From positions 62,001 to 126,000 of the forward strand of contig NZ_CP093341.1 of the NCBI RefSeq assembly GCF_022637455.1: DNA of 64,000 nt, read 5' to 3'. Numbering within the stretch: position 1 is the stretch's first letter; each line of letters starts with the position of its first letter. The stretch comes from Lysobacter sp. S4-A87 (GTDB taxonomy: Bacteria > Pseudomonadota > Gammaproteobacteria > Xanthomonadales > Xanthomonadaceae). Shown one piece after another: positions 6,291 to 34,978 of the stretch. The position numbers and the translations under genes are program-made. The notes beneath the pieces were generated by a model that worked only from the letters and a program-made list of their open reading frames with translations, was not told the DNA's origin and made no database searches.

Positions 6291-8861
6291 ATGCAGCAGA
6301 GCATGTGCAGCGGGAACCGCGGCGGGCTGATGCGGAAATGGTGGGTGCTGCTCGCCCTTGCACTGTCGCTGCTGGCGCTGGACTGCGCCGCCGCCATGCG
6401 CAGGATCGATCCCGGCAAGGATCCCAAGCTGGCGCCGGACGAAGGCCTGGTGGTGCTGTCGGTTGACGCCAGCGTCGCGATCATCTCCGCCGTGCGCGTG
6501 GCCGATACCGACCGCACCGCGCAGGTGATCAACAACCTCAACGAGGGCCGCAACGTCGGCCTGTATGCGGCCAAGGCCGGCGAGTACCGCTGGTCGGAAG
6601 TCGACATGACCACCTTGCGGGGCCGCCTGCGCTACACGCTGACGTCCGAGGATTACCGCTTCAAGGTCACGGCCGGAAAGATCGTCTATCCCGGCGACCT
6701 GATCCTGCGCCCGACCAGCTGGACGTCGATGCGGTTCCATGCCGCCAACCGTTCGCTGCCGGTGATCGACTGGCTCGAGACCGCGCATCCGAAGGTGTAC
6801 CCGGCCGTGCCGTTCGAATACACCGGCCGGTACCCGGATCCTTTCCCGGCGTTCTATCGCAAGGCGCGTGCATCGAACACGACGCCGGCCGCCAGGCTCA
6901 ACGACGGTCGCGAGGCGCCAGAACCCATCGCGGTTCCGCTGCCAGCCAAGGTGATGTGGCGGCCCGACCGCATCGAGGCCGTGGCCATCAACGGCGCCGG
7001 CGACCTGATGGCCGAGACCGTGCTCGACAACAACGGCAACTGGGGCGTCGACCTGATCGACCTGGTCACAGGCGACGTCCAGCGCCTGGTGACGTCAGCC
7101 TATTCCGCCGACGAGCTGATGTGGAAGGACAGCCGCACACTCATCGCTGCAACCGGCGATGACGACAAGTCCTATACCTTGTTCCGCATCGGCGCTGCCA
7201 ACAACGGCAAGCGCAGCATCACGCGCCTGCCGATCTCCGGCACCGGCCGCATCGTCGACCTGCTGCCGGACGTGACCAACCATATCCTGTTCGAAGGCTT
7301 CGACAGCCGCGGTGACCTGGTCGTGCACCGGGTCGAGCTGGTGGGCAACCGGGAGATCTCGGGCTTCCAGACCGCAAAGAGCCGCGACCGCCTCAACGTC
7401 GGCGTCACCAAGGACGTGTCCTGGTATACCGACGGGCGCGGGCAGCTGCGCGCGGCGGTGGTGGTTCGCGACGAGGTTGCCGCGCTGGTGTACGGACGCG
7501 ATGGCGTCTACGAGGAAGTGCTTCGCTGGGAGGGCGAAGGCGGCTTCCGCCCGGTCGGCCTGTCCTACGATGGCAACACCATCTATGGCTATACCGATGA
7601 CGACCGTGGCCAGCGCGATCTGGTTGCGTTCGACCCGGTCAGCCGAAAGGTTTCGCGCACGGTGTTCAGCAAGCCCGGCGTTGACCTGTCGGGCGTGGTC
7701 TTCAACGAGCGTCGCGAGCCCGTGGCCGCGCGCTATTACCAGTCCGGCCGGCTGGTCACCGAGTACTTCGACGAAACCAACCGCAACCTCGACCGGACCC
7801 TGCAGGCTGCGTTTCCCGGGCGCATGGTCGCGGTGCTCGACCGCAGCCGCGACGACAAGCAGCTGATCCTGTGGGTGAGCGCCAGCGACCATCCGCCGGA
7901 GCTCTATCACCTGGACATGGTGCGCAAGCAGGCCGCGCTGCTGGAGGCCGTTGCGCCGTGGTTGTCCGACATGAAGTTCTCGCCGGCCTACGTGATGAAC
8001 GTCAAGAGCAGCGACGGCCTGTCGATCGAAGCGTTCCTGACGTTGCCGCCCGGTACCGACAAGCGCCCGCTGGTGGTGTTTCCGCACGGCGGCCCGATCG
8101 GCGTCAGCGACCGGCTCACCTTCGATCGCGACGTGCAGTTCCTTGCCGCGCAGGGCTATGCCGTGCTGCAGGTGAACTACCGTGGCTCGGACGGTTACGG
8201 CAAGGCCTTCCGCGAGGCCGGCCACCGCAACTACGGCCGTCTGATCGAAGACGACATCGATGCCGCGGTGCGGTCCGCGCTGGCCGCGTATCCGCTCGAC
8301 GAATCGCGAATGTGCACGCTGGGCGCCAGCTACGGCGGCTACTCGGCGCTGGTGTCGGCGGTGCGCTGGCCGGGCCGCTTCCGCTGCGCGGTGTCGCTGT
8401 CGGGCCTGAGCGATCGCACGCTGTTCTTCACCGCCAGCGACGCTGCGCGTTCGGCACAGGTGCGGCCGCTGATGGAGCGCGTCATGGGCGACCCGCGCAC
8501 GGACATGGCCGAGATGCAGGCCACCTCGCCGCTGTACCACGTCGACTCGCTGAAGCTGCCGGTGATGCTGGTGCACGGGCGCGAAGACGTCCGCGTCGAC
8601 TTCGAGCACACCCGGCGCCTGGTGCGCATGCTCAACCTGCAGGGCCAGCCGCCGGTGCTGCTCGCGCTGCCCGACATGGGGCACGGCTTCTCCGACGCGG
8701 CCGAAGCCGATCTTGGCTGGACGAGCATCGCCGGCTTCCTGCAGCAGCACCTGGGCACCACGCCTGCGATCACGGAAGCCGAGGCGAAAGCGAAGGCGGC
8801 AACGCCGGTGGTCGCAGCGCCGGCCGCTGCGGCGTGCGGGCAGGGCGGCGGCAAGAAGTAG
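6291..8861 (+). CDS. Secreted S9 family prolyl oligopeptidase-like serine peptidase
   Basis: The 856-residue protein has a hydrophobic export signal beginning at the internal Met14 (RKWWVLLALALSLLALDC), a beta-propeller-like middle (about 190-560) and a C-terminal alpha/beta-hydrolase domain. The catalytic triad is visible: Ser680 in GASYGGYSAL, Asp766 in HGREDVRVD and His798 in DMGHGFSD. FPHGGPIG and VNYRGSDGYGKAF form the oxyanion and family signature. S9 enzymes of this type cleave peptides from the N-terminal side in the periplasm. GGGGA 6-7 bases before ATG 6291 supports this start; the frame stays open back to 5865, but that part overlaps the upstream gene. The Ala-rich tail ends in GQGGGKK. 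Confidence 0.93.
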   Translation: MQQSMCSGNRGGLMRKWWVLLALALSLLALDCAAAMRRIDPGKDPKLAPDEGLVVLSVDASVAIISAVRVADTDRTAQVINNLNEGRNVGLYAAKAGEYRWSEVDMTTLRGRLRYTLTSEDYRFKVTAGKIVYPGDLILRPTSWTSMRFHAANRSLPVIDWLETAHPKVYPAVPFEYTGRYPDPFPAFYRKARASNTTPAARLNDGREAPEPIAVPLPAKVMWRPDRIEAVAINGAGDLMAETVLDNNGNWGVDLIDLVTGDVQRLVTSAYSADELMWKDSRTLIAATGDDDKSYTLFRIGAANNGKRSITRLPISGTGRIVDLLPDVTNHILFEGFDSRGDLVVHRVELVGNREISGFQTAKSRDRLNVGVTKDVSWYTDGRGQLRAAVVVRDEVAALVYGRDGVYEEVLRWEGEGGFRPVGLSYDGNTIYGYTDDDRGQRDLVAFDPVSRKVSRTVFSKPGVDLSGVVFNERREPVAARYYQSGRLVTEYFDETNRNLDRTLQAAFPGRMVAVLDRSRDDKQLILWVSASDHPPELYHLDMVRKQAALLEAVAPWLSDMKFSPAYVMNVKSSDGLSIEAFLTLPPGTDKRPLVVFPHGGPIGVSDRLTFDRDVQFLAAQGYAVLQVNYRGSDGYGKAFREAGHRNYGRLIEDDIDAAVRSALAAYPLDESRMCTLGASYGGYSALVSAVRWPGRFRCAVSLSGLSDRTLFFTASDAARSAQVRPLMERVMGDPRTDMAEMQATSPLYHVDSLKLPVMLVHGREDVRVDFEHTRRLVRMLNLQGQPPVLLALPDMGHGFSDAAEADLGWTSIAGFLQQHLGTTPAITEAEAKAKAATPVVAAPAAAACGQGGGKK

Positions 8862-8929
8862 CGGCCCCCTGTCCGCGCCGGCCCGTGCACCGCGTTGGCG
8901 AGGGTGTGCGGGCACCGGCCGGAGGCGAA

Positions 8930-9358
8930 ATGAGCGACACATACAGCGGCAGCTGCTTTTGCGGTGCCGTCGGCATCGAGGTGAGCGGGGCGCCGGAGGC
9001 GATGGGCTACTGCCATTGCGCGTCCTGCCGCAGCTGGTCGGCGGGCCCGGTCAACGCCTTCACCCTGTGGAAACCGGCCAACGTCAAAGTCACCCGCGGC
9101 GCCGAGCTGATCGGCCACTACGCCAAGACGCCGGCCAGCGACCGCCAGTTCTGCAGCCGTTGCGGCGGCCACCTGATGACCCACCACCCGCCGTTCGACC
9201 TGACCGACGTCTACGCCGCGACCCTCCCGTCCCTGGCCTTCGCACCGGCCGTGCACGTGAACTACGCCGAGACCGTGCTGCGGATGAAGGACGGGCTGCC
9301 GAAGCTGAAGGACTTCCCCGCCGACCTCGGCGGCTCCGGCGAGATGTTGCCGGAATAG
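8930..9358 (+). CDS. GFA-family zinc-binding protein
   Basis: The 142-residue protein follows the GFA (glutathione-dependent formaldehyde-activating enzyme/CENP-V) pattern: CFCG with Cys9 and Cys11, CHCASC with Cys28, Cys30 and Cys33, and a final CSRCG with Cys75 and Cys78. Together these form the two zinc sites. Family members bind zinc and some bind glutathione; the enzymatic activity of most is unproven. GGAGG lies 4 bases before ATG, after a 68-base gap from the S9 peptidase gene. An inverted repeat starts at the stop codon. Confidence 0.9.
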   Translation: MSDTYSGSCFCGAVGIEVSGAPEAMGYCHCASCRSWSAGPVNAFTLWKPANVKVTRGAELIGHYAKTPASDRQFCSRCGGHLMTHHPPFDLTDVYAATLPSLAFAPAVHVNYAETVLRMKDGLPKLKDFPADLGGSGEMLPE

Positions 9359-27160: not shown

Positions 27161-27295
27161 CCGGATAGCGCTCGGCTATCGAATTCATCCGATCAAACGA
27201 TTTCTCCTCTGGTTGAGCGAGGTCTAGCCTCGCGCCGGGATGCCGTGTCCGGCGTCCTGGCAGCAGCGTCATCAACCAGTCAAGGGAGAATGACC

Positions 27296-28696
27296 ATGAG
27301 GCAAACACCATTACCGCGGCTGTGGCCGCTGTGGTTGATCAGCATCAGCGTGCTCGGGATCTCGTGCATGGCGCTGGCAGACGATCCGCCCGCCAGCAGC
27401 TATGCGCCCGTGACGCCGAGCGACACCTTCGCCAACGTCAAGAAGCGAATGGAAGGCGACAAGGGCGGCGTGATGAAGCGCCAGAGCAGCCTGCTCGAGC
27501 AGCGCTACGACCTGTCCAACAAACCCGCGCAGGGCGTGACGATGTCGGGCGGCAAGGCGGTGCAGTCCGGCGTGCGCGCAAAGCTGCCGTCGGGCATCAG
27601 CTGGGACCAGCTCAGTGGCATGAGTGCCGAGCAGATCAAGGAGCGCGACGCGTTCCCGATCGGCTTCCTGCCGCTGCCGCATCCCAACCATCCCGAAGGC
27701 GGCATGCTGTTCCCTCAGTTCCACATCGACGCGATCAAGAAAGCCGAACAGCGTGACCTGACCCGCTTCGACCTCGACTACGACCTGCCGGCGCATTTCC
27801 TCCCGGATTTCCCCGCGCCGATCTTCCTGACCACGCGGCCCGACCTGGGCGATGTGTCGAAGGGGCAGCTGGTCACCATCAACAACTACTACGAGTTGTT
27901 CAACGGCCTGCTCAATCCCAAGCAGCTCGAAGGGCTGCGCCTGCTGGTCACGCCGTTCCCGCAGCAGCAGTTCAACCAGACCGAGGACCGCCGTTCGGCG
28001 CTGCCCAGCCGCGGCGTTGCCTGCCTGGACTGCCATGCCAACGGCCACACCAACGCCGCCACGCACCTGGTCGGCGACATCCGACCGCAGCAGTTCCGCC
28101 ACCGCATCGACACGCCGCCGTTGCGCGGCGTGAACGTCCAGCGGCTGTTCGGTTCGCAGCGCGCCCTGAAGACGGTGGAAGACTTCACCGAGTTCGAGCA
28201 GCGCGCGGCGTACTTCGATGGCGATCCGGTGATTGCCACCAAGAAGGGCATCAACATCCTCGACCGCGGCCACCAGGTGCATGCAATGGGCGAGTTCCAG
28301 GCGATCCTGGACTTCCCGCCGGCGCCGAAGCTCGACGTGTTCGGGCGCCTGGATCCGGCCAAGGCCACCGATCCGGAGAAGCGCGGCGAGGCGCTGTTCT
28401 TCGGCAAGGCCAAGTGCTCGGGTTGCCACACACCGCCGTACTACACCGACAACTCGATGCACAACCTGCAGGTCGAGCGCTTCTTCAAGCCGCAGATGAT
28501 CAATGGCCGTTTCGCCAGCGCCGATGGACCGATCAAGACCTTCCCGTTGCGCGGCATCAAGGACTCGCCGCCGTACCTGCACGACGGCCGCCTGCTGACG
28601 CTGGAGGACAGCGTGGAGTTCTTCAACATCGTGCTGCAGACGCGCCTGCAGCAGCAGGAAAAGGATGACCTGGTGGCGTTCCTGCGCCAGCTGTGA
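27296..28696 (+). CDS. Periplasmic di-heme cytochrome c / cytochrome-c peroxidase-like protein
   Basis: The 466-residue protein has a signal peptide (LWPLWLISISVLGISCMALA). Two c-type heme sites are seen: CLDCH at 243-247 and CSGCH at 374-378. Segments ERFFKPQMINGRFA and KTFPLRGIKDSPPYLHDGRL near the C-terminus match the MauG/CCP-like domain. It probably transfers electrons or reduces peroxide in the periplasm. The N-terminal 230 residues have no heme and are unassigned. AGGGAG lies 7 bases before ATG 27296; ATG 27290 is too close to it. Confidence 0.85.
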   Translation: MRQTPLPRLWPLWLISISVLGISCMALADDPPASSYAPVTPSDTFANVKKRMEGDKGGVMKRQSSLLEQRYDLSNKPAQGVTMSGGKAVQSGVRAKLPSGISWDQLSGMSAEQIKERDAFPIGFLPLPHPNHPEGGMLFPQFHIDAIKKAEQRDLTRFDLDYDLPAHFLPDFPAPIFLTTRPDLGDVSKGQLVTINNYYELFNGLLNPKQLEGLRLLVTPFPQQQFNQTEDRRSALPSRGVACLDCHANGHTNAATHLVGDIRPQQFRHRIDTPPLRGVNVQRLFGSQRALKTVEDFTEFEQRAAYFDGDPVIATKKGINILDRGHQVHAMGEFQAILDFPPAPKLDVFGRLDPAKATDPEKRGEALFFGKAKCSGCHTPPYYTDNSMHNLQVERFFKPQMINGRFASADGPIKTFPLRGIKDSPPYLHDGRLLTLEDSVEFFNIVLQTRLQQQEKDDLVAFLRQL

Positions 28697-28964: not shown

Positions 28965-29375
28965 ATGGACGGGGTCTGGAACGACGTGGTGCGTTTCTAT
29001 ACCGACATGATCGGCCGCACGCAGGGGCCGATGACGTTCCGCCTGTACCTCCAGCCCGCCATGGCGGTGCTGCTGGCGTTCCGCGACGGATTCAAGGATG
29101 CGCGGATCGGCCGGCATCCGTACTTCTGGACGATCGTCCACGACCCGATGCGCCGGCAGGCCTCGCTGCACGAAGGCTTCAAGGCGACCGCCAGGATCCT
29201 GGTGCTCGGCGTGGTGATGGACACGATCTACCAGTACAAGGTGTTCGGCACGTTCCATGTCCTGGAAGCGCTGAACGTCGCCCTGATTCTCGGCTTCATT
29301 CCCTATTTTCTGGTCCGCGGCCCGGTCGACCGGATCGCGCACTGGTGGTTGAAGCGCAAGGCCGGAGCCCCCTGA
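28965..29375 (+). CDS. Membrane protein, first gene of the sulfatase block
   Basis: The 136-residue protein has hydrophobic segments at about 26-40, 75-98 and 103-122, with charged loops (RDGFKDARIGRHPYFWTIV, DPMRRQASLHEGF). GGGAG lies 4 bases before ATG 28965; the frame opens at 28890, but the additional residues are non-conserved-looking. The next gene (DUF202) begins 3 bases after its stop, so the two are one operon and probably lead into the sulfatase gene. No family recognised with certainty. Confidence 0.65.
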   Translation: MDGVWNDVVRFYTDMIGRTQGPMTFRLYLQPAMAVLLAFRDGFKDARIGRHPYFWTIVHDPMRRQASLHEGFKATARILVLGVVMDTIYQYKVFGTFHVLEALNVALILGFIPYFLVRGPVDRIAHWWLKRKAGAP

Positions 29376-29378
29376 GCC

Positions 29379-29891
29379 ATGACACCGATCCTGCCCGAAG
29401 AACGCGATCCCGAACTGCCGCTGTCGGCCAACCTGCCCACGCCGCCGTACAAAACGACCGACGAAAAATCGGTCGAGTTGTCCTCGCGCCGCACCGGGAT
29501 GTCGTTCCAGCGAACGCGCATGAGTGCCGACCGCACGCTGATGTCGGTCATCCGCACCGCGCTGTCGCTGATCAGCTTCGGCTTCACCATCTTCCAGGTG
29601 TTCAAGAAGATGCAGGAGTCGAACCTTCTTGAAGGCACCGGCCGCGAGCCGCGCAACTTCGGCATCGCACTGGTCGCGCTCGGCGTGGTGATGCTGACGC
29701 TGGGCATCGTCTACCACATCAACTACATGCTGGGCCTGCGCGGCGAACGCGTGCGCATGATCCAGCAGGGCCTGGTGCATGGCGAAAGCAAGTATCCGCT
29801 GTCGCTGACGCTGATCACCGCCGGCCTGCTTTGGCTGCTCGGCCTGCTGGCCGCGGTCAGCATGGTTTTCAACGTCCCCCTGCTGGGCTGA
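29379..29891 (+). CDS. DUF202 (YidH-like) membrane protein
   Basis: The 170-residue protein has the DUF202 signature TRMSADRTLMSVIRTALSLI followed by GFTIFQVF, two further spans (GIALVALGVVMLTLGIVYHI and LTLITAGLLWLLGLLAAVSM) and a charged N-terminus of about 40 residues. Function unknown; the family is widespread in inner membranes. It is 3 bases downstream of the preceding membrane protein and 99 bases upstream of the sulfatase. Confidence 0.85.
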   Translation: MTPILPEERDPELPLSANLPTPPYKTTDEKSVELSSRRTGMSFQRTRMSADRTLMSVIRTALSLISFGFTIFQVFKKMQESNLLEGTGREPRNFGIALVALGVVMLTLGIVYHINYMLGLRGERVRMIQQGLVHGESKYPLSLTLITAGLLWLLGLLAAVSMVFNVPLLG

Positions 29892-29990
29892 AACGCGTGC
29901 GGACGCCACGTCCGTCGGCCCGGTTGCCCAAAGATCCAGCCACTGGCAGTGCAAGTGACGGATGTCCCCCCGTTTAGCGGAGAACGAGCA

Positions 29991-31607
29991 ATGGCAACAG
30001 CAAAGAAGGCCGTCAGCAAGACGGCGAAGAAGACCGCAGCCAAGGCGGTATCCAAGACGTCAACACGGGCTACGAGCGGCAAGAAGCCACCGAACATCCT
30101 CGTGATCTGGGGCGACGACATCGGCATCGCCAACCTGAGCTGCTACACCCGCGGCCTGATGGGCTACCAGACGCCCAACATCGACCGTATCGCCAACGAA
30201 GGCATGTTGTTCACCGATTCCTACGGCGAGCAGTCCTGCACGGCAGGCCGCTCGTCCTTCATCACCGGCCAGAGCGTGTACCGGACCGGCCTGTCCAAGG
30301 TCGGCATTCCGGCGGCGCCGCAGGGCCTGCAGCCGGAAACGGTGACCACCGCCGACCTGCTCAAGGACCGCGGCTACGCCACCGGCCAGTTCGGCAAGAA
30401 CCACCTGGGCGACCTCAACAAGTTCCTGCCCACCGTGCACGGCTTCGACGAGTTCTTCGGCAACCTCTACCACCTCAACGCCGAAGAAGAGCCGGAGATG
30501 GCCAACTACCCGAAGGACCCGCGCTTCCGCGAGCGCTTCGGCCCGCGCGGCGTGCTGCATTGCTGGGCCACGGACAAGGACGACGCCACGGTGCAGGATC
30601 GCTGGGGCAAGGTCGGCAAGCAGAAGATCAAGGACACCGGCCCGCTCACCAAGAAGCGCATGGAAACCTGCGACGACGAGTTCGTCGAGGCCGCCAGCGA
30701 CTTCATCAAGCGCCAGCACATGGCCGACAAGCCGTTCTTCGTGTGGCTCAACACCACCCACATGCACCTGTTCACCCACACCAAGAAGGAAAGCCTGGGA
30801 CAGGCCGGTCGCTGGCAGTCGCCGTACCACGACACCATGATCGACCACGACAGGAACGTGGGCCAGATGCTCGACCTGCTCGACGAGCTCGGCATCGCCG
30901 ACGACACGATCGTGATGTATTCCTCCGACAACGGCCCGCACATGAACAGTTGGCCGGACGGCGGCATGACGCCGTTCCGCAGCGAGAAGAACACCAACTG
31001 GGAAGGTGCCTTCCGCGTGCCGCTGCTGGTGCGTTGGCCGGGCCAGATCAAGGCCGGGTCGGTGTCCAACGAGATCGTCCAGCACCACGACTGGCTGCCG
31101 ACGTTCCTGGAGGCCGCGGGTGACACGACCGCGGCCGATCGCCTCAAGAAGGGCACGACCGTCAACGGCAAGAAGTTCAAGAACCATATCGACGGCTCAA
31201 GCTTCCTTCCGTACCTGACCGGGGCGAGCAAGGAAGGGCCGCGCAAGTTCTTCTTCTACTTCAGCGACGATGGCGATGTGCTGGGCATACGCTACGACAA
31301 CTGGAAGCTGGTGTTCATCGAGCAGCGCTGCAAAGGCACGATGGAGATATGGGCCGAGCCGTTCACCAAGCTGCGGCTGCCGAAGATCTTCAACTTGCGG
31401 ATGGATCCGTACGAGCGGGCGGACGTCACGTCGAACACGTACTACGACTGGTGCCTGAACAACATGTACTTCCTGTACGCGGCGCAGACGGCTGCGGCGA
31501 TGTTCGCAGCGACGTTCAAGGACTTCCCGCCGGCGCAGCTGCCGGGCAGCTTCACGATCGACGACGCACTCAAGAAGATGTCCGAGACCCCGGCCGGCGC
31601 TAGCTGA
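29991..31607 (+). CDS. Sulfatase (type I, Cys-type) with Lys/Ala-rich N-terminal tail
   Basis: The 538-residue protein is a sulfatase: WGDDIG supplies the metal-binding Asp42/Asp43, and SCTAGRSSFITGQ holds the maturation motif C-x-A-x-R with Cys83, the residue converted to formylglycine. VMYSSDNGPH is the second metal site and FRVPLLVRWPG a family segment. There is no signal peptide; residues 3-32 are instead a basic Lys/Ala/Thr/Ser repeat (AKKAVSKTAKKTAAKAVSK). The enzyme would hydrolyse a sulfate ester, substrate unknown. GGAG lies 8 bases before ATG. The formylglycine-generating enzyme is encoded two genes downstream, directly supporting the maturation reading. Confidence 0.93.
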   Translation: MATAKKAVSKTAKKTAAKAVSKTSTRATSGKKPPNILVIWGDDIGIANLSCYTRGLMGYQTPNIDRIANEGMLFTDSYGEQSCTAGRSSFITGQSVYRTGLSKVGIPAAPQGLQPETVTTADLLKDRGYATGQFGKNHLGDLNKFLPTVHGFDEFFGNLYHLNAEEEPEMANYPKDPRFRERFGPRGVLHCWATDKDDATVQDRWGKVGKQKIKDTGPLTKKRMETCDDEFVEAASDFIKRQHMADKPFFVWLNTTHMHLFTHTKKESLGQAGRWQSPYHDTMIDHDRNVGQMLDLLDELGIADDTIVMYSSDNGPHMNSWPDGGMTPFRSEKNTNWEGAFRVPLLVRWPGQIKAGSVSNEIVQHHDWLPTFLEAAGDTTAADRLKKGTTVNGKKFKNHIDGSSFLPYLTGASKEGPRKFFFYFSDDGDVLGIRYDNWKLVFIEQRCKGTMEIWAEPFTKLRLPKIFNLRMDPYERADVTSNTYYDWCLNNMYFLYAAQTAAAMFAATFKDFPPAQLPGSFTIDDALKKMSETPAGAS

Positions 31608-31623
31608 CACGCAACACGCTCGA

Positions 31624-31653
31624 AGCCCCTCTCCCGGATGCGGGAGAGGGGCT
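31624..31653. repeat. Hairpin of the REP-like C-rich family, copy 2
   Basis: AGCCCCTCTCCCG and CGGGAGAGGGGCT form a 13-bp perfect stem with a GATG loop, 16 bases after the sulfatase stop and before the HAD gene. It has the same CCCCTCTCCC core as the elements at 1391 and 39619. Without a T tract it may attenuate or process the operon mRNA rather than end it. Confidence 0.6.
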
Positions 31654-31682
31654 GCCGTCATGGAACAACGAAGAGGATCCAC

Positions 31683-32600
31683 ATGAAAGACCCATTGCCG
31701 TCCTGGAACGAAGGGGCGAACAAAGCCGCGATCAAGTCCTTCGTGGAGCGCGTGACGACCGGGGGCGGGCCGGACTTCGTCCCGGTCAGCGACCGCATCG
31801 CCGTGTTCGACAACGACGGCACGCTGTGGTGCGAGTATCCGCTGCAGGTGCAGGTGTTCTTCGCCCTCGACCAGATCAAGCTGCTGGCCAGGCAGGACCC
31901 GAAGCTGCTGGAGAAGCCGGCGTTCAAGGCGATGCTCAATTGCGACCTGCATGCCCTGGCGGCACTGCCAAAGAAGGAGGCATTCGAGCCGGCCTTCGCC
32001 ACCCATGCCGGCATGACGGTCGACGAGTTCCGCGACAACGCCGCGCAATGGCTGGCCGAGGCAAAGCATCCGACCCTGATGCACCGGTTCACGCAGGGCA
32101 ACTACGTGCCGCAGCGCGAACTGCTCGACTACCTGCGCGACAACGGCTTCAAGACCTACATCGTCACCGGTGGCGGCGTCGAGTTCGTTCGCGTCGTGGC
32201 CGAGACGCTGTACGGGATACCGCCCGAGCAGGTGATAGGCTCGAGCACCCGGATGAAGGTCGAGACCGTCGAAGGCCAGCCGGTGCTGCGCAAGCTCGCC
32301 GAACTGGGCAGCTTCGACGATCGCGAAGAGAAGGTGGTCAACATCGGCCTGCACCTCGGGCGGCGACCGCTGTTCGCATTCGGCAACTCCGACGGCGACC
32401 TGGCGATGATCCGCTACACGCTGGCCGGCGATGGTCCGCGCATGGCCTGGTACCTGCACCACGACGATGCCGAGCGCGAATTCGCCTACGACCACGACTT
32501 CAAGCTGAGTCCATTCAAGGACGGGCTGGAGCACGCCAAGGACTATGGCATCGGTCTGGTCAGCATGAAGAACGACTGGAACCGGGTCTTCGCATCATGA
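31683..32600 (+). CDS. HAD-superfamily hydrolase (phosphoserine phosphatase-like)
   Basis: The 305-residue protein has motif I VFDNDGTLW (nucleophile Asp43, Asp45), motif II IVTGGGVEF and motif IV FGNSDGDLAM. A helical cap of about 90 residues lies between I and II. The HAD family hydrolyses phosphate esters. Its place between the sulfatase and the formylglycine-generating enzyme suggests it acts on the same substrate class or on a phosphorylated product. AGAGGA lies about 6 bases before ATG. Its TGA overlaps the next start (ATGA). Confidence 0.9.
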   Translation: MKDPLPSWNEGANKAAIKSFVERVTTGGGPDFVPVSDRIAVFDNDGTLWCEYPLQVQVFFALDQIKLLARQDPKLLEKPAFKAMLNCDLHALAALPKKEAFEPAFATHAGMTVDEFRDNAAQWLAEAKHPTLMHRFTQGNYVPQRELLDYLRDNGFKTYIVTGGGVEFVRVVAETLYGIPPEQVIGSSTRMKVETVEGQPVLRKLAELGSFDDREEKVVNIGLHLGRRPLFAFGNSDGDLAMIRYTLAGDGPRMAWYLHHDDAEREFAYDHDFKLSPFKDGLEHAKDYGIGLVSMKNDWNRVFAS

Positions 32601-33586
32601 ACATTCACGCTAAGCTCGGCCCGGGATTGGCGACCGACGAGGAAGGCATGACCTTGGAAGGCGGGAAATTCGACGACATGGTGCGCATCCCCGGTGGCAC
32701 CTTCCTGATGGGGTCCGATCACCACTACCCCGAGGAAGCGCCGGCACACAAGGTGTCGGTGCCGGCATTCCGGATCGACCGCACCGCGGTCACCAACGAC
32801 CAGTTTGCGCGCTTCGTCGAAGCGACCGGCTACGTCACCATGGCCGAGCGGCCGGCCGATCCGGCCGACTATCCGGGCGCTGACCCGGCGCTGCTGGTGC
32901 CTTCGTCGGTGGTGTTCGTGCCCGCGCAGGGGCCGGTGGATCTTCGCGATCACTACAACTGGTGGGCCTATATCGCCGGTGCGGACTGGCGACATCCGCG
33001 CGGACCGGAGTCGTCGATCGAGGGCCTGGGCGACCATCCGGTCGTGCACGTCGCATTCGAGGATGCACAGGCCTACGCCGAATGGGCCGGCAAGTCGCTG
33101 CCGACCGAAGCCGAATGGGAGTTCGCTGCACGTGGCGGCCTCGATGCCGCCGAGTTCACCTGGGGCACTGAATTCACCCCGGACGGCAAGTACATGGCCA
33201 ACACCTGGCAGGGCGAGTTCCCCTGGCAGAACCTGCAGCAGGATGGTCACCTGTGGACCGCGCCCGTCGCTTCCTATCCGGCCAACGGCTACGGCCTGCA
33301 CGACATGGCGGGCAATGTCTGGGAGTGGACCACCGACTGGTACCAGGACCACAACCGCATCCAGCAGCACTCGTGCTGCACGCTGGAGAACCCGCGTGGC
33401 GGCGAGCGCGATGCCAGCTTCGATCCGCGCCAGCCGCAGGTGCGGATTCCGCGCCGGGTGATGAAGGGCGGCTCGCACCTGTGCGCGCCGAACTACTGCC
33501 GACGCTACCGGCCGGCGGCGCGGATGGCCCAGCCGATCGACACGTCGACCTGCCATCTGGGCTTCCGCTGCGTCGTGCGCGAGTAA
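32597..33586 (+). CDS. Formylglycine-generating enzyme (SUMF1/FGE family)
   Basis: The 329-residue protein has the FGE-sulfatase fold: VRIPGGTFLMGSDHHYPEEA, HPVVHVAFEDAQAYAEWAG, LPTEAEWEFAARGG, GLHDMAGNVWEWTTDWY, and the C-terminal CAPNYCRRYRPAAR, which places Cys296 and Cys301 as the copper-binding/redox pair of true FGE. FGE oxidises the sulfatase Cys to formylglycine before folding. The Cys pair separates it from the many FGE-fold proteins of other function. The ATG overlaps the stop of the HAD gene by 4 bases, so expression is coupled. The target is most likely the sulfatase two genes upstream. Confidence 0.95.
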   Translation: MNIHAKLGPGLATDEEGMTLEGGKFDDMVRIPGGTFLMGSDHHYPEEAPAHKVSVPAFRIDRTAVTNDQFARFVEATGYVTMAERPADPADYPGADPALLVPSSVVFVPAQGPVDLRDHYNWWAYIAGADWRHPRGPESSIEGLGDHPVVHVAFEDAQAYAEWAGKSLPTEAEWEFAARGGLDAAEFTWGTEFTPDGKYMANTWQGEFPWQNLQQDGHLWTAPVASYPANGYGLHDMAGNVWEWTTDWYQDHNRIQQHSCCTLENPRGGERDASFDPRQPQVRIPRRVMKGGSHLCAPNYCRRYRPAARMAQPIDTSTCHLGFRCVVRE

Positions 33587-33613
33587 CCGGTCCACCGTGT
33601 GGAGGAGGGCGCC

Positions 33614-33982
33614 ATGAAGGAGTGGCTGATCACGATCACCGAGCCGGTCGTGGTGATGATCGACATCATCGCGTTGCTGGTGGTGCTCGCAGGCACGCTG
33701 CAGGCCGTGCTCGGCGTGATCCGGATGCTCTGGCGCCACGACCACGACAATCACCTGCGTCGCCAGATATGGATGGACTTCTCGCGCTGGCTGGTGGCCG
33801 CGCTCACCTTCCAGCTGGCGGCCGATATCCTGGAATCGTCGACGACGCCGGACTGGGACGGAATCGGTCGTCTGGCGGCGGTGGCGGTGATCCGCACCTT
33901 CCTCAACTACTTCCTGGAGCGCGACGTCGAGGAGATGCGGGAACGCGAAGCCGAGTCCCGCGAGCGGGCTGGCGTAAAATGA
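33614..33982 (+). CDS. DUF1622 membrane protein
   Basis: The 122-residue protein has three hydrophobic segments: VVVMIDIIALLVVLAGTLQAV, LVAALTFQLAADILES and LAAVAVIRTFLNYFL. The RWLVAALTFQLAADILE and AVIRTFLNYFLERDVEE segments match DUF1622. Function unknown. GGAGG lies 8 bases before ATG, 27 bases after the FGE stop, so it is the last gene of the sulfatase block. Confidence 0.87.
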   Translation: MKEWLITITEPVVVMIDIIALLVVLAGTLQAVLGVIRMLWRHDHDNHLRRQIWMDFSRWLVAALTFQLAADILESSTTPDWDGIGRLAAVAVIRTFLNYFLERDVEEMREREAESRERAGVK

Positions 33983-34009: not shown

Positions 34010-34351
34010 ATGCCCAACGCTCCCGCCTGTCCGCAATGCACCCTTGAGAACACCTACGTCGATGGCGGCAATTTCGTCTGCGCCGATTGCGGTTTCGAAT
34101 GGTCCGCCTCCGGCGATGCCGGCACCGATACCGGCGCGGTCGTCCGCGACAGCAACGGCAACACGCTGGCCAATGGCGACACCGTGGTGGTGATCAAGGA
34201 TCTGAAGGTGAAAGGCTCCTCGATCCCGCTCAAGCAGGGCACGGTGATCAAGAACATCCGCCTGGTCGAAGACGACGCAGAACATATCGAAGGCAACTCG
34301 GACAAGATCAAGGGCCTGGTGCTGAAGACCATCTTCCTGCGCAAGGCCTGA
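34010..34351 (+). CDS. yjdM: Zinc-ribbon protein YjdM (PhnA family)
   Basis: The 113-residue protein has Cys7/Cys10 and Cys24/Cys27 (CPQC and CADC) as a zinc ribbon, followed by the PhnA core VVRDSNGNTLANGDTVVVIK, GSSIPLKQGTVIKNIRLV and IKGLVLKTIFLRK. Despite the name, PhnA/YjdM is not needed for phosphonate use; its role is unclear. It sits 27 bases after the DUF1622 gene. Confidence 0.92.
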   Translation: MPNAPACPQCTLENTYVDGGNFVCADCGFEWSASGDAGTDTGAVVRDSNGNTLANGDTVVVIKDLKVKGSSIPLKQGTVIKNIRLVEDDAEHIEGNSDKIKGLVLKTIFLRKA

Positions 34352-34429
34352 TCGAAACGGCACCGTCACGGGCTGGTCACGTCGCCGCTCCAAAAGTAGG
34401 CGACTGACAACGCACCGTGGAGCCCCGTG

Positions 34430-34978
34430 ATGAGCCACTACCGCATCGCCGTGTTGATCGGCAGCCTGCGCCGCGAGTCGATCAACCGCCAGCTCGCCCA
34501 TGGGCTGTTCAAACTGGGGCCCGCGGACTTCGAGTTCCACGAGTGCCGCATCGACGACCTGCCGCTGTACAACCAGGACGACGACAGCCACCAGGCAGCC
34601 CCGGTGAAGCGGCTCAAGCAGGAGATTTCGGGCGCGAAGGGCGTGATGTTCGTGACGCCCGAGTACAACCGCTCGGTGCCCGGCGTGCTGAAGAATGCGA
34701 TCGACCATGCCTCGCGCCCCTACGGGCAAAGCGCCTTCGCCGGGAAACCGGCCGGCGTGATCGGTGCCTCGATCGGCTCGATCGGCAGCGCACTGGCGCA
34801 GCAGCACCTGCGCAACACGCTGGCCTACCTCGACATGCCGACCATGGGCCAGCCGGAGGTGTTCATCCACGCCAAGGAAGGGCTGTTCGACGACGACGGC
34901 CAGATCGGCGCGGGCAGCCGCAAGTTCCTGCAGGAATGGATGGACCGTTACGTCGATTGGGTGAAGTCGCACTCGTAG
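34430..34978 (+). CDS. NADPH-dependent FMN reductase
   Basis: The 182-residue flavodoxin-like protein has GSLRRESINRQLAHGL (FMN phosphate loop), FVTPEYNRSVPGVLKNAIDH (the conserved TPEYN isoalloxazine contact) and GVIGASIGSIGSALAQQHLR. It reduces FMN or quinones with NAD(P)H in the cytoplasm. GTG 34427 directly precedes ATG 34430; ATG is preferred, with GGAG 8 bases upstream. Confidence 0.92.
   Translation: MSHYRIAVLIGSLRRESINRQLAHGLFKLGPADFEFHECRIDDLPLYNQDDDSHQAAPVKRLKQEISGAKGVMFVTPEYNRSVPGVLKNAIDHASRPYGQSAFAGKPAGVIGASIGSIGSALAQQHLRNTLAYLDMPTMGQPEVFIHAKEGLFDDDGQIGAGSRKFLQEWMDRYVDWVKSHS

Follow-up and report, generated by a model that had tools for sequence, protein, structure and literature searches.

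Many bacterial sulfatases lack a known substrate, and a block of six genes in Lysobacter sp. S4-A87 raises the question of whether the neighbours of such a sulfatase belong to one pathway with it. The block lies at positions 28965-33982 of a 64,000-nucleotide stretch (the window) of this genome (3.9 Mb, single contig), and it joins a sulfatase and a formylglycine-generating enzyme (FGE) to a HAD hydrolase and three small putative membrane proteins. An earlier reading made from the sequence alone (the sequence-only reading) had described six co-directional genes with their motifs, spacing and an ATGA overlap, and all of these stood when the open reading frames (ORFs) and positions were rechecked. 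Our firm finding is that the subfamilies of the window sulfatase and the window HAD hydrolase occur together, and they most likely serve one function. The genes of the block are as follows.

28965..29375, plus strand: memA, a small putative membrane protein of 136 amino acids, without a Pfam or NCBIfam family
29379..29891, plus strand: DUF202 membrane protein, 170 amino acids (PF02656, E 2.7e-12), with three hydrophobic segments
29991..31607, plus strand: predicted S1 formylglycine sulfatase, signal-less, 538 amino acids (PF00884, E 1.5e-50), with a Lys/Ala-rich N-terminal tail and Cys83 in CTAGR
31683..32600, plus strand: HAD phosphatase-like hydrolase, 305 amino acids (PF12710, E 6.6e-13; 4ovy, E 5e-89), assigned with its motifs and a fold search
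32597..33586, plus strand: predicted FGE, 329 amino acids (PF03781, E 6e-86; 6s07, E 3e-72), with Cys296/Cys301
33599..33982, plus strand: DUF1622 membrane protein (PF07784, E 6e-21), with two hydrophobic segments, in a sulfatase/FGE-linked clade of its tree

Joint occurrence of the sulfatase and the HAD hydrolase

Co-occurrence was scored in a phylum draw of 299 evenly drawn genomes, with cut-offs of E <= 1e-120 for the sulfatase, 1e-20 for HAD and 1e-50 for FGE. The sulfatase was present in at least 31 genomes (a lower bound, with at most five candidates scored per genome), HAD in 24 and both in 22, where 2.5 were expected (Fisher p 4e-24; this and the other co-occurrence p-values are optimistic because the genomes are related). 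Counted by genus, 15 of 17 HAD genera had the sulfatase (p 8e-15), and with the window genome left out it was present in 21 of 23 HAD genomes. FGE occurred in 34 of the 299 genomes and shared 12 with the sulfatase (p 2e-5). Two further phylum draws were centred on genomes picked for holding both genes, with the centres left out and the HAD profile set at 1e-50. The draw around a Synechococcus had the sulfatase in 5, HAD in 4 and both in 3 of 107 genomes (p 2e-4), and the one around a Mycolicibacterium had them in 3, 2 and 1 of 109 (p 0.055). In five genomes of the main draw (G243, G196, G341, G238 and G307), hundreds of kilobases separate the two genes, and no family sulfatase was seen in the stretch around HAD. 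They are on different contigs in G164, which has a lower-scoring sulfatase (474 bits) near HAD.

The sequence-only reading had suggested, as an inference, that the HAD enzyme belongs to the sulfatase pathway, and this is well supported by the phylogenetic profile, by adjacency and by matching export signals. Sulfatase and HAD thus very probably share a pathway. A search of the open-licence literature found nothing on a link between sulfatase and HAD or between sulfatase and DUF1622, nothing that pairs FGE with DUF202 or joins arylsulfatase, HAD and FGE, and nothing that names 4OVY. Passages of a sulfatase review (PMC3920027) and of PMC11450739 are silent on the sulfatase-HAD link.

Relatives of the sulfatase beyond the genus were collected by a profile scan with the family alignment, and the best 80 of at least 589 confirmed relatives were examined. 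When the ORFs around these 80 loci were clustered blind to the window, FGE formed a cluster at 33 loci, HAD at 26, DUF202 at 15 and DUF1622 at 8; a profile search gave 36, 30, 16 and 8, and memA at 3. The partners were concentrated close to the sulfatase. HAD was found at 29 loci within 4 kb and at 1 locus 6-10 kb away, FGE at 35 and 1, DUF202 at 12 and 1, and DUF1622 at 7 and 0, whereas a common, unrelated control family (SDR) was found at 3 near and 9 far loci (580 kb inspected near, 486 kb far). Within 5 kb, counted over the 79 loci with a scored central sulfatase (short contigs make some absences not real), HAD or FGE was present in 45, both in 19, a membrane gene in 16, and a membrane gene co-located with FGE in 11.

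Plasmid records carried the sulfatase in 204 cases (E 1e-100) and HAD in 215 (1e-30). An arylsulfatase-HAD pair stands on plasmid pRL11 (Rhizobium johnstonii) and an FGE-arylsulfatase-HAD run on pMNOD02 (Methylobacterium nodulans), and a Leptolyngbya plasmid has an arylsulfatase, DUF1622, four DUF202 genes and FGE. The order on a Neorhizobium plasmid is memA-DUF202-arylsulfatase-arylsulfatase-DUF1622-transporter, the first gene being annotated as hypothetical and recognised as memA by search. A Rhodobacteraceae plasmid has memA with no annotated sulfatase or DUF202 within 8 kb, and its sister has an arylsulfatase with no partners within 7 kb. The arrangements are varied, and therefore the pieces move and recombine.

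Predicted activities and a possible common substrate

The window sulfatase scores 172.7 bits against PF00884 (cut-off 25). Its CTAGR motif begins at Cys83 (ATG form) and satisfies the C-x-P/A-x-R formylglycine signature. DD42-43, CTAGR83-87, KNH136-138 (K136, H138) and DN313-314 do not vary among 15 aligned members of the family, which are 47-78% identical to it. We take DD, K-x-H and DN to be metal-site or catalytic residues, and the pattern presumably to be that of arylsulfatases. CTAGR is present in 126 of the 135 sulfatase ORFs scored across the loci; the other nine are seven long paralogues with C-S-P-S/T-R and two with Ser for Cys (L091 and L141). The best match in the PDB is the arylsulfatase 7aj0 (E 7e-49), aligned along the length of the protein, and the window sulfatase has no close solved relative. 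Scores against the NCBIfam equivalogs for choline-sulfatase and PehA were below cut-off (83.7 against 433.45 bits, and 55.4 against 900 bits). The protein starts with a tail of 8 Lys and 8 Ala within 31 residues, and a signal-like segment is absent. The description of sulfatase, HAD and FGE as signal-less held, as none of them has a 19-residue segment with a mean hydropathy of at least 1.5.

FGE enzymes oxidise a sulfatase Cys to formylglycine. The best solved relatives of the window FGE (6s07, 5nxl, 6muj and 2q17, E 3e-72 to 5e-72 over the full domain) are true FGEs, suggesting that it is one too and not an EgtB, PvdO or SenA; the match to the sulfoxide synthase EgtB (4x8b) is far weaker (E 1e-16). 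Cys296/Cys301, on which the sequence-only reading had based the same assignment, aligned with the Cys pair of 6s07. The pairing of sulfatase and FGE is ordinary maturation, with FGE as the expected maturase, and this part of the block is already known. It is highly likely that the window FGE matures the window sulfatase. The window system resembles known type I (S1, formylglycine) sulfatases and FGEs in its Cys-type CTAGR, its family model and a neighbouring FGE with the Cys pair, but its sulfatase differs in being signal-less and in having a Lys/Ala-rich tail and a HAD partner.

The view that the block is a self-contained sulfatase system is doubtful. The same genome encodes another three members of the sulfatase family (65, 59 and 51% identity), none with the block, and it has one FGE at E < 1e-50 to the window FGE and one HAD at E < 1e-20. 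Four of its proteins match the wider FGE family model, and the second strong match lies at G000:C1:1067003-1067824 (L002, 224.6 bits).

A radical SAM/SPASM/SEC-C gene, which we presume to be anSME-like, adjoins some family sulfatases (5 of the 80 loci in the clustering) and is absent from the window block. The two family members with Ser for Cys (SSTAGR; L141 9705-11309 and L091 16796-18364) each adjoin such a gene and not an FGE.

The HAD enzyme belongs to the same subfamily as 4ovy, a Planctomyces limnophilus HAD hydrolase deposited without a stated function (E 5e-89, 47% identity, TM 0.95). The fold search, made with an AlphaFold2 model of pLDDT 93.8, ranked 4ovy first, then 4as2 (TM 0.60), with phosphoserine-phosphatase-type folds lower. 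Among HAD ORFs above 240 bits in the loci, motif I (D-x-D-G) was found in 57 of 57 and motif IV (GNSxGD) in 56 of 57. K217 (the Lys of motif III), N235 and D239 are invariant in an alignment of 39, in which motif I is partly given by selection, as the rows besides the window were taken from ORFs chosen by DNDG. It is very likely that the enzyme is a phosphatase. The structure 4as2 is PchP, the phosphorylcholine phosphatase of Pseudomonas aeruginosa, also a phosphatase-type HAD. We rejected membership of the window HAD in the PchP family, which is a different sequence family (E 5e-5 over 80 query residues, 16% identity, TM 0.60).

Export signals were called with a simple hydropathy rule in 39 adjacent same-strand sulfatase-HAD pairs, including the window and the congener loci L028 and L093. 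The calls agreed in 33 of 37 callable pairs (16 both exported, 17 neither; 2 of the 39 not callable). DUF202, DUF1622 or memA was found no more than 5 kb from 16 of the 50 signal-less sulfatases and from none of the 26 exported ones (3 of the 79 not callable), or by genus 13 of 37 against 0 of 18 (p 0.005), although the compartment contrasts come to nearly one event and their p-values are not independent evidence. Partners matched in compartment have kept together from a deep split onward; the chief exception is Synechococcus.

We tentatively propose a cytosolic module of two hydrolases, a reading that we put slightly below an even chance. FGE would oxidise Cys83 of the sulfatase to formylglycine, and the sulfatase would then take sulfate off a small organosulfate. 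Within the same compartment, HAD would take phosphate off this molecule or off its phosphorylated form. DUF202, DUF1622 and memA would most likely move the substrate or the released sulfate across the membrane. These activities and the order of the steps are proposed from the genes, motifs, co-occurrence and compartment matching that were observed. That the sulfatase and HAD share one substrate or catalyse directly successive steps has close to an even chance of being right, and a transport role for the membrane genes seems somewhat doubtful.

Several observations weigh against this proposal. The drawn genomes are related, and co-occurrence was not adjusted for the total number of sulfatases. 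HAD is missing from 9 of the 31 sulfatase genomes, and the family sulfatase is missing at the cut-off from 2 of the 24 HAD genomes; of these two, G222 carries a less similar sulfatase (359 bits) next to its HAD gene, and G335 has none in the stretch examined. Distances between sulfatases and between HADs correlate weakly (mirror-tree r 0.23, n = 41; largest of 2000 shuffles 0.28), indicating that the two genes are not passed on strictly as one. A membrane gene and HAD occur together within 5 kb in only 4 of the 79 relatives. None of the five partners is within 5 kb in 31 of the 79, and the full set of HAD, FGE, DUF202 and DUF1622 is rare, being found once (L098, Synechococcus WH 5701). These last two counts go half the way to the accidental grouping for which the sequence-only reading had set a test, namely that homologous sulfatases usually stand without these genes. 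The sodium-bile-acid-type transporter and SulP families, found at 10 and 7 of the 80 loci in the blind clustering, were chosen after the maps had been viewed. Four pairs are discordant, namely L066 and three Synechococcus loci (L098, L106 and L123), where a signal-less sulfatase stands beside an exported HAD. Compartment changed only twice on the sulfatase tree and once on the HAD tree. Both the matching of signals and the tie between membrane genes and cytosolic sulfatases therefore amount to roughly a single evolutionary contrast. When pairs were chosen with regard to phylogeny, two independent ones were left for compartment against membrane genes and one for the two compartments.

A wider version of the proposal is on the unlikely side. 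In it, the S1 sulfatase and HAD phosphatase subfamilies would form a widespread, undescribed pathway acting sequentially on a single small ester that bears, or comes to bear, both sulfate and phosphate, in exported and cytosolic forms, the latter served by the DUF1622 clade, DUF202 and memA. As HAD was found almost only in genomes with the sulfatase family, the search for a substrate is narrowed, and the substrate should suit both a sulfatase and a HAD phosphatase within one compartment. DUF1622, DUF202 and the 4ovy-type HAD also gain a context that can be tested.

Organisation of the block and its neighbours

With the preferred starts, the gaps from memA through DUF202, sulfatase, HAD and FGE to DUF1622 are 3, 99, 75, -4 and 12 nucleotides, where -4 is the four-nucleotide ATGA overlap of HAD and FGE. 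An alternative GTG start of the sulfatase at 29949 would cut the gap after DUF202 to 57 nucleotides, and the first in-frame ATG of HAD at 31638 would cut the next to 30. DUF1622 starts with a GTG at 33599 and has an internal ATG at 33614. As all six genes are on the plus strand with short gaps, a single transcript is plausible. The promoter scan gave no promoter-like sites, and the terminator scan gave 7 terminator-like sites where 4.6 were expected.

Three other genes flank the block.

27245-28696, upstream of the block: MauG-like di-heme cytochrome gene (NCBIfam MauG model E 4e-12, far under cut-off)
34010..34351, plus strand: YjdM/PhnA zinc-ribbon protein (TIGR00686 above cut-off), a companion of the block inside the genus only
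34427..34978, plus strand: NADPH-dependent FMN reductase (PF03358), probably outside the module

The product of the MauG-like gene had no Pfam match at 1e-3. Conservation was compared in 10 congener loci, drawn from 11 congener genomes with the sulfatase, with G011 left out. The order memA-DUF202-sulfatase-HAD-FGE was kept in 10 of 10, and a tandem second sulfatase is present in two loci (L030 and L031). DUF1622 and YjdM were each present in 9, the FMN reductase in 7, the MauG-like gene in 3, a NAT gene in 2 and a peptidase in 1. Thus, the conserved unit in the genus spans memA through YjdM. The NAT and MauG-like genes were rejected as members of the module, being dropped in most congeners. 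YjdM and the FMN reductase were also rejected; they are incomplete among congeners and had no match in the 80 loci beyond the genus (reach of up to 10 kb on each side).

Beside exported sulfatase/HAD loci of the phylum set (L127, L133-L138, L141 and L142), there is a complete or nearly complete MoxR-DUF58-DUF4381-VWA-BatD-type operon. A MoxR-type ATPase gene was near 6 of 26 exported and none of 50 signal-less sulfatases. This operon might help to mature or insert the sulfatase. An association of MoxR, arylsulfatase and von Willebrand was not found in the open-licence literature.

Small membrane proteins and other readings of the locus

All three small proteins had been called membrane proteins. 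The call stands for DUF202 and DUF1622, which have hydrophobic segments and score above their Pfam cut-offs like other members of these families (47.4 bits against 23.4, and 74.6 against 24). It is less sure for memA, which has only one hydrophobic segment and no Pfam or NCBIfam match at E 0.001. memA was found in 2 of the 299 genomes (the window genome and G147), both with the sulfatase. Its alignment holds 16 sequences, and its AlphaFold2 model (mean pLDDT 65) was unusable for a fold search.

DUF1622 occurred in 17 of the 299 genomes, 6 of them shared with the sulfatase (p 0.004). We examined 13 of its 18 places in these genomes, leaving out 5, and around 9 of the 13 the stretch contained none of the sulfatase, FGE, HAD and DUF202 families. 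A tree of 25 DUF1622 rows was built, in which a row counts as linked when a sulfatase or FGE is in the same stretch. The window protein belongs to a clade associated with sulfatase/FGE loci. A fully supported branch sets 14 of the 16 linked rows, along with one unlinked row (L158), apart from the other unlinked rows, with which the remaining two linked rows (L042 and one from L143) are grouped. Linkage changed twice on the tree, against a shuffled mean of 7.6 (0 of 500 shuffles), in a sample that is biased because linked rows were partly found through the sulfatase.

The inclusion of the small membrane proteins in the pathway has weaker support than that of HAD. DUF202 (12 near, 1 far) and DUF1622 (7 and 0) are enriched beside the sulfatase, but only 16 of 79 relatives have a membrane gene within 5 kb, and the case for DUF1622 is lowered by the presence of the sulfatase in only 6 of its 17 genomes. 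It is a real, if minority, possibility that only sulfatase, FGE and HAD are linked, and that DUF202, DUF1622, memA and YjdM are passengers or a separate, perhaps stress-related, set that often lies alongside. The presence of HAD in just 4 of those 16 loci, the 11 of 17 genomes with DUF1622 and no sulfatase, the unmatched YjdM and FMN reductase, and the mechanosensitive channel, response-regulator-like and DUF1254 genes that recur nearby all fit this. However, the enrichment of DUF202 and DUF1622 beside the sulfatase holds in Pseudomonadota, in Cyanobacteriota and on plasmids, the DUF1622 clade accompanies sulfatase/FGE loci, and a second sulfatase of the window genome has another DUF202 two genes upstream.

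That second locus (L027 7725-12816, C1 about 1263724-1268815) carries a fourth sulfatase paralogue. DUF202 and MarC-family genes precede it, and ABC-transporter solute-binding, permease and ATPase genes follow; from sequence, our guess is a transporter of the molybdate type. In L164 (genome G021, 8829-9206), FGE and a DUF1622 of the linked type are 7 bp apart, with no family sulfatase in the surrounding stretch, nor in the genome at 1e-120. This pair is perhaps a remnant or points to a second FGE client. Two arylsulfatase papers that seemed to name DUF202 (PMC10434189 and PMC5819568) were set aside, as the matches there were longer numbers such as DUF2023 and DUF2029. DUF1622 by itself turned up in the open-licence literature in one proteomics paper (PMC8980031).

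Another reading keeps sulfatase and HAD as independent, broad-range ester hydrolases that free sulfate and phosphate in parallel, with no common substrate. Transporters of the sulfate-permease, sodium-bile-acid and porin-like types are found repeatedly near these genes, the congruence of sulfatase with HAD distances is weak, and several genomes have more than one family sulfatase and one HAD, as such scavenging might predict. It is unlikely, as HAD hardly occurs outside genomes with the sulfatase (22 of 24 have it), beyond what a phosphate role of its own would lead one to expect, and as the window pair is signal-less, an odd site for scavenging bulk esters.

Compared with the proposed sulfatase-HAD module, a phosphodiester route would change the first step. 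Formylglycine enzymes of the sulfatase superfamily can split phosphodiesters, and here the sulfatase-fold enzyme would mainly do so, with HAD dephosphorylating what is released, much as choline-type phosphodiesters are used. The phosphorylcholine phosphatase 4as2, ranked second in the fold search with HAD, would suit this. The route is very unlikely given the active-site pattern, which is arylsulfatase-like, the alignment with arylsulfatase 7aj0 along the length of the protein, and the score of 55 against a cut-off of 900 bits for the NCBIfam phosphoric/sulfuric ester hydrolase model.

A chance or lineage-specific Lysobacter arrangement without functional meaning is scarcely credible: the full six-gene order was found only within the genus among the loci examined and in 31 of 79 relatives the 5 kb on either side contain no partner, but co-occurrence and the near/far controls across phyla largely refute it for HAD and FGE, a verdict that does not cover memA and YjdM, and the memA-DUF202-sulfatase-sulfatase-DUF1622 order on the Neorhizobium plasmid also stands against it.

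Finally, an AraC-type regulator family recurs beside the sulfatase in L082, L098, L102, L106 and L108 (Bradyrhizobium, Synechococcus and Planktothrix).

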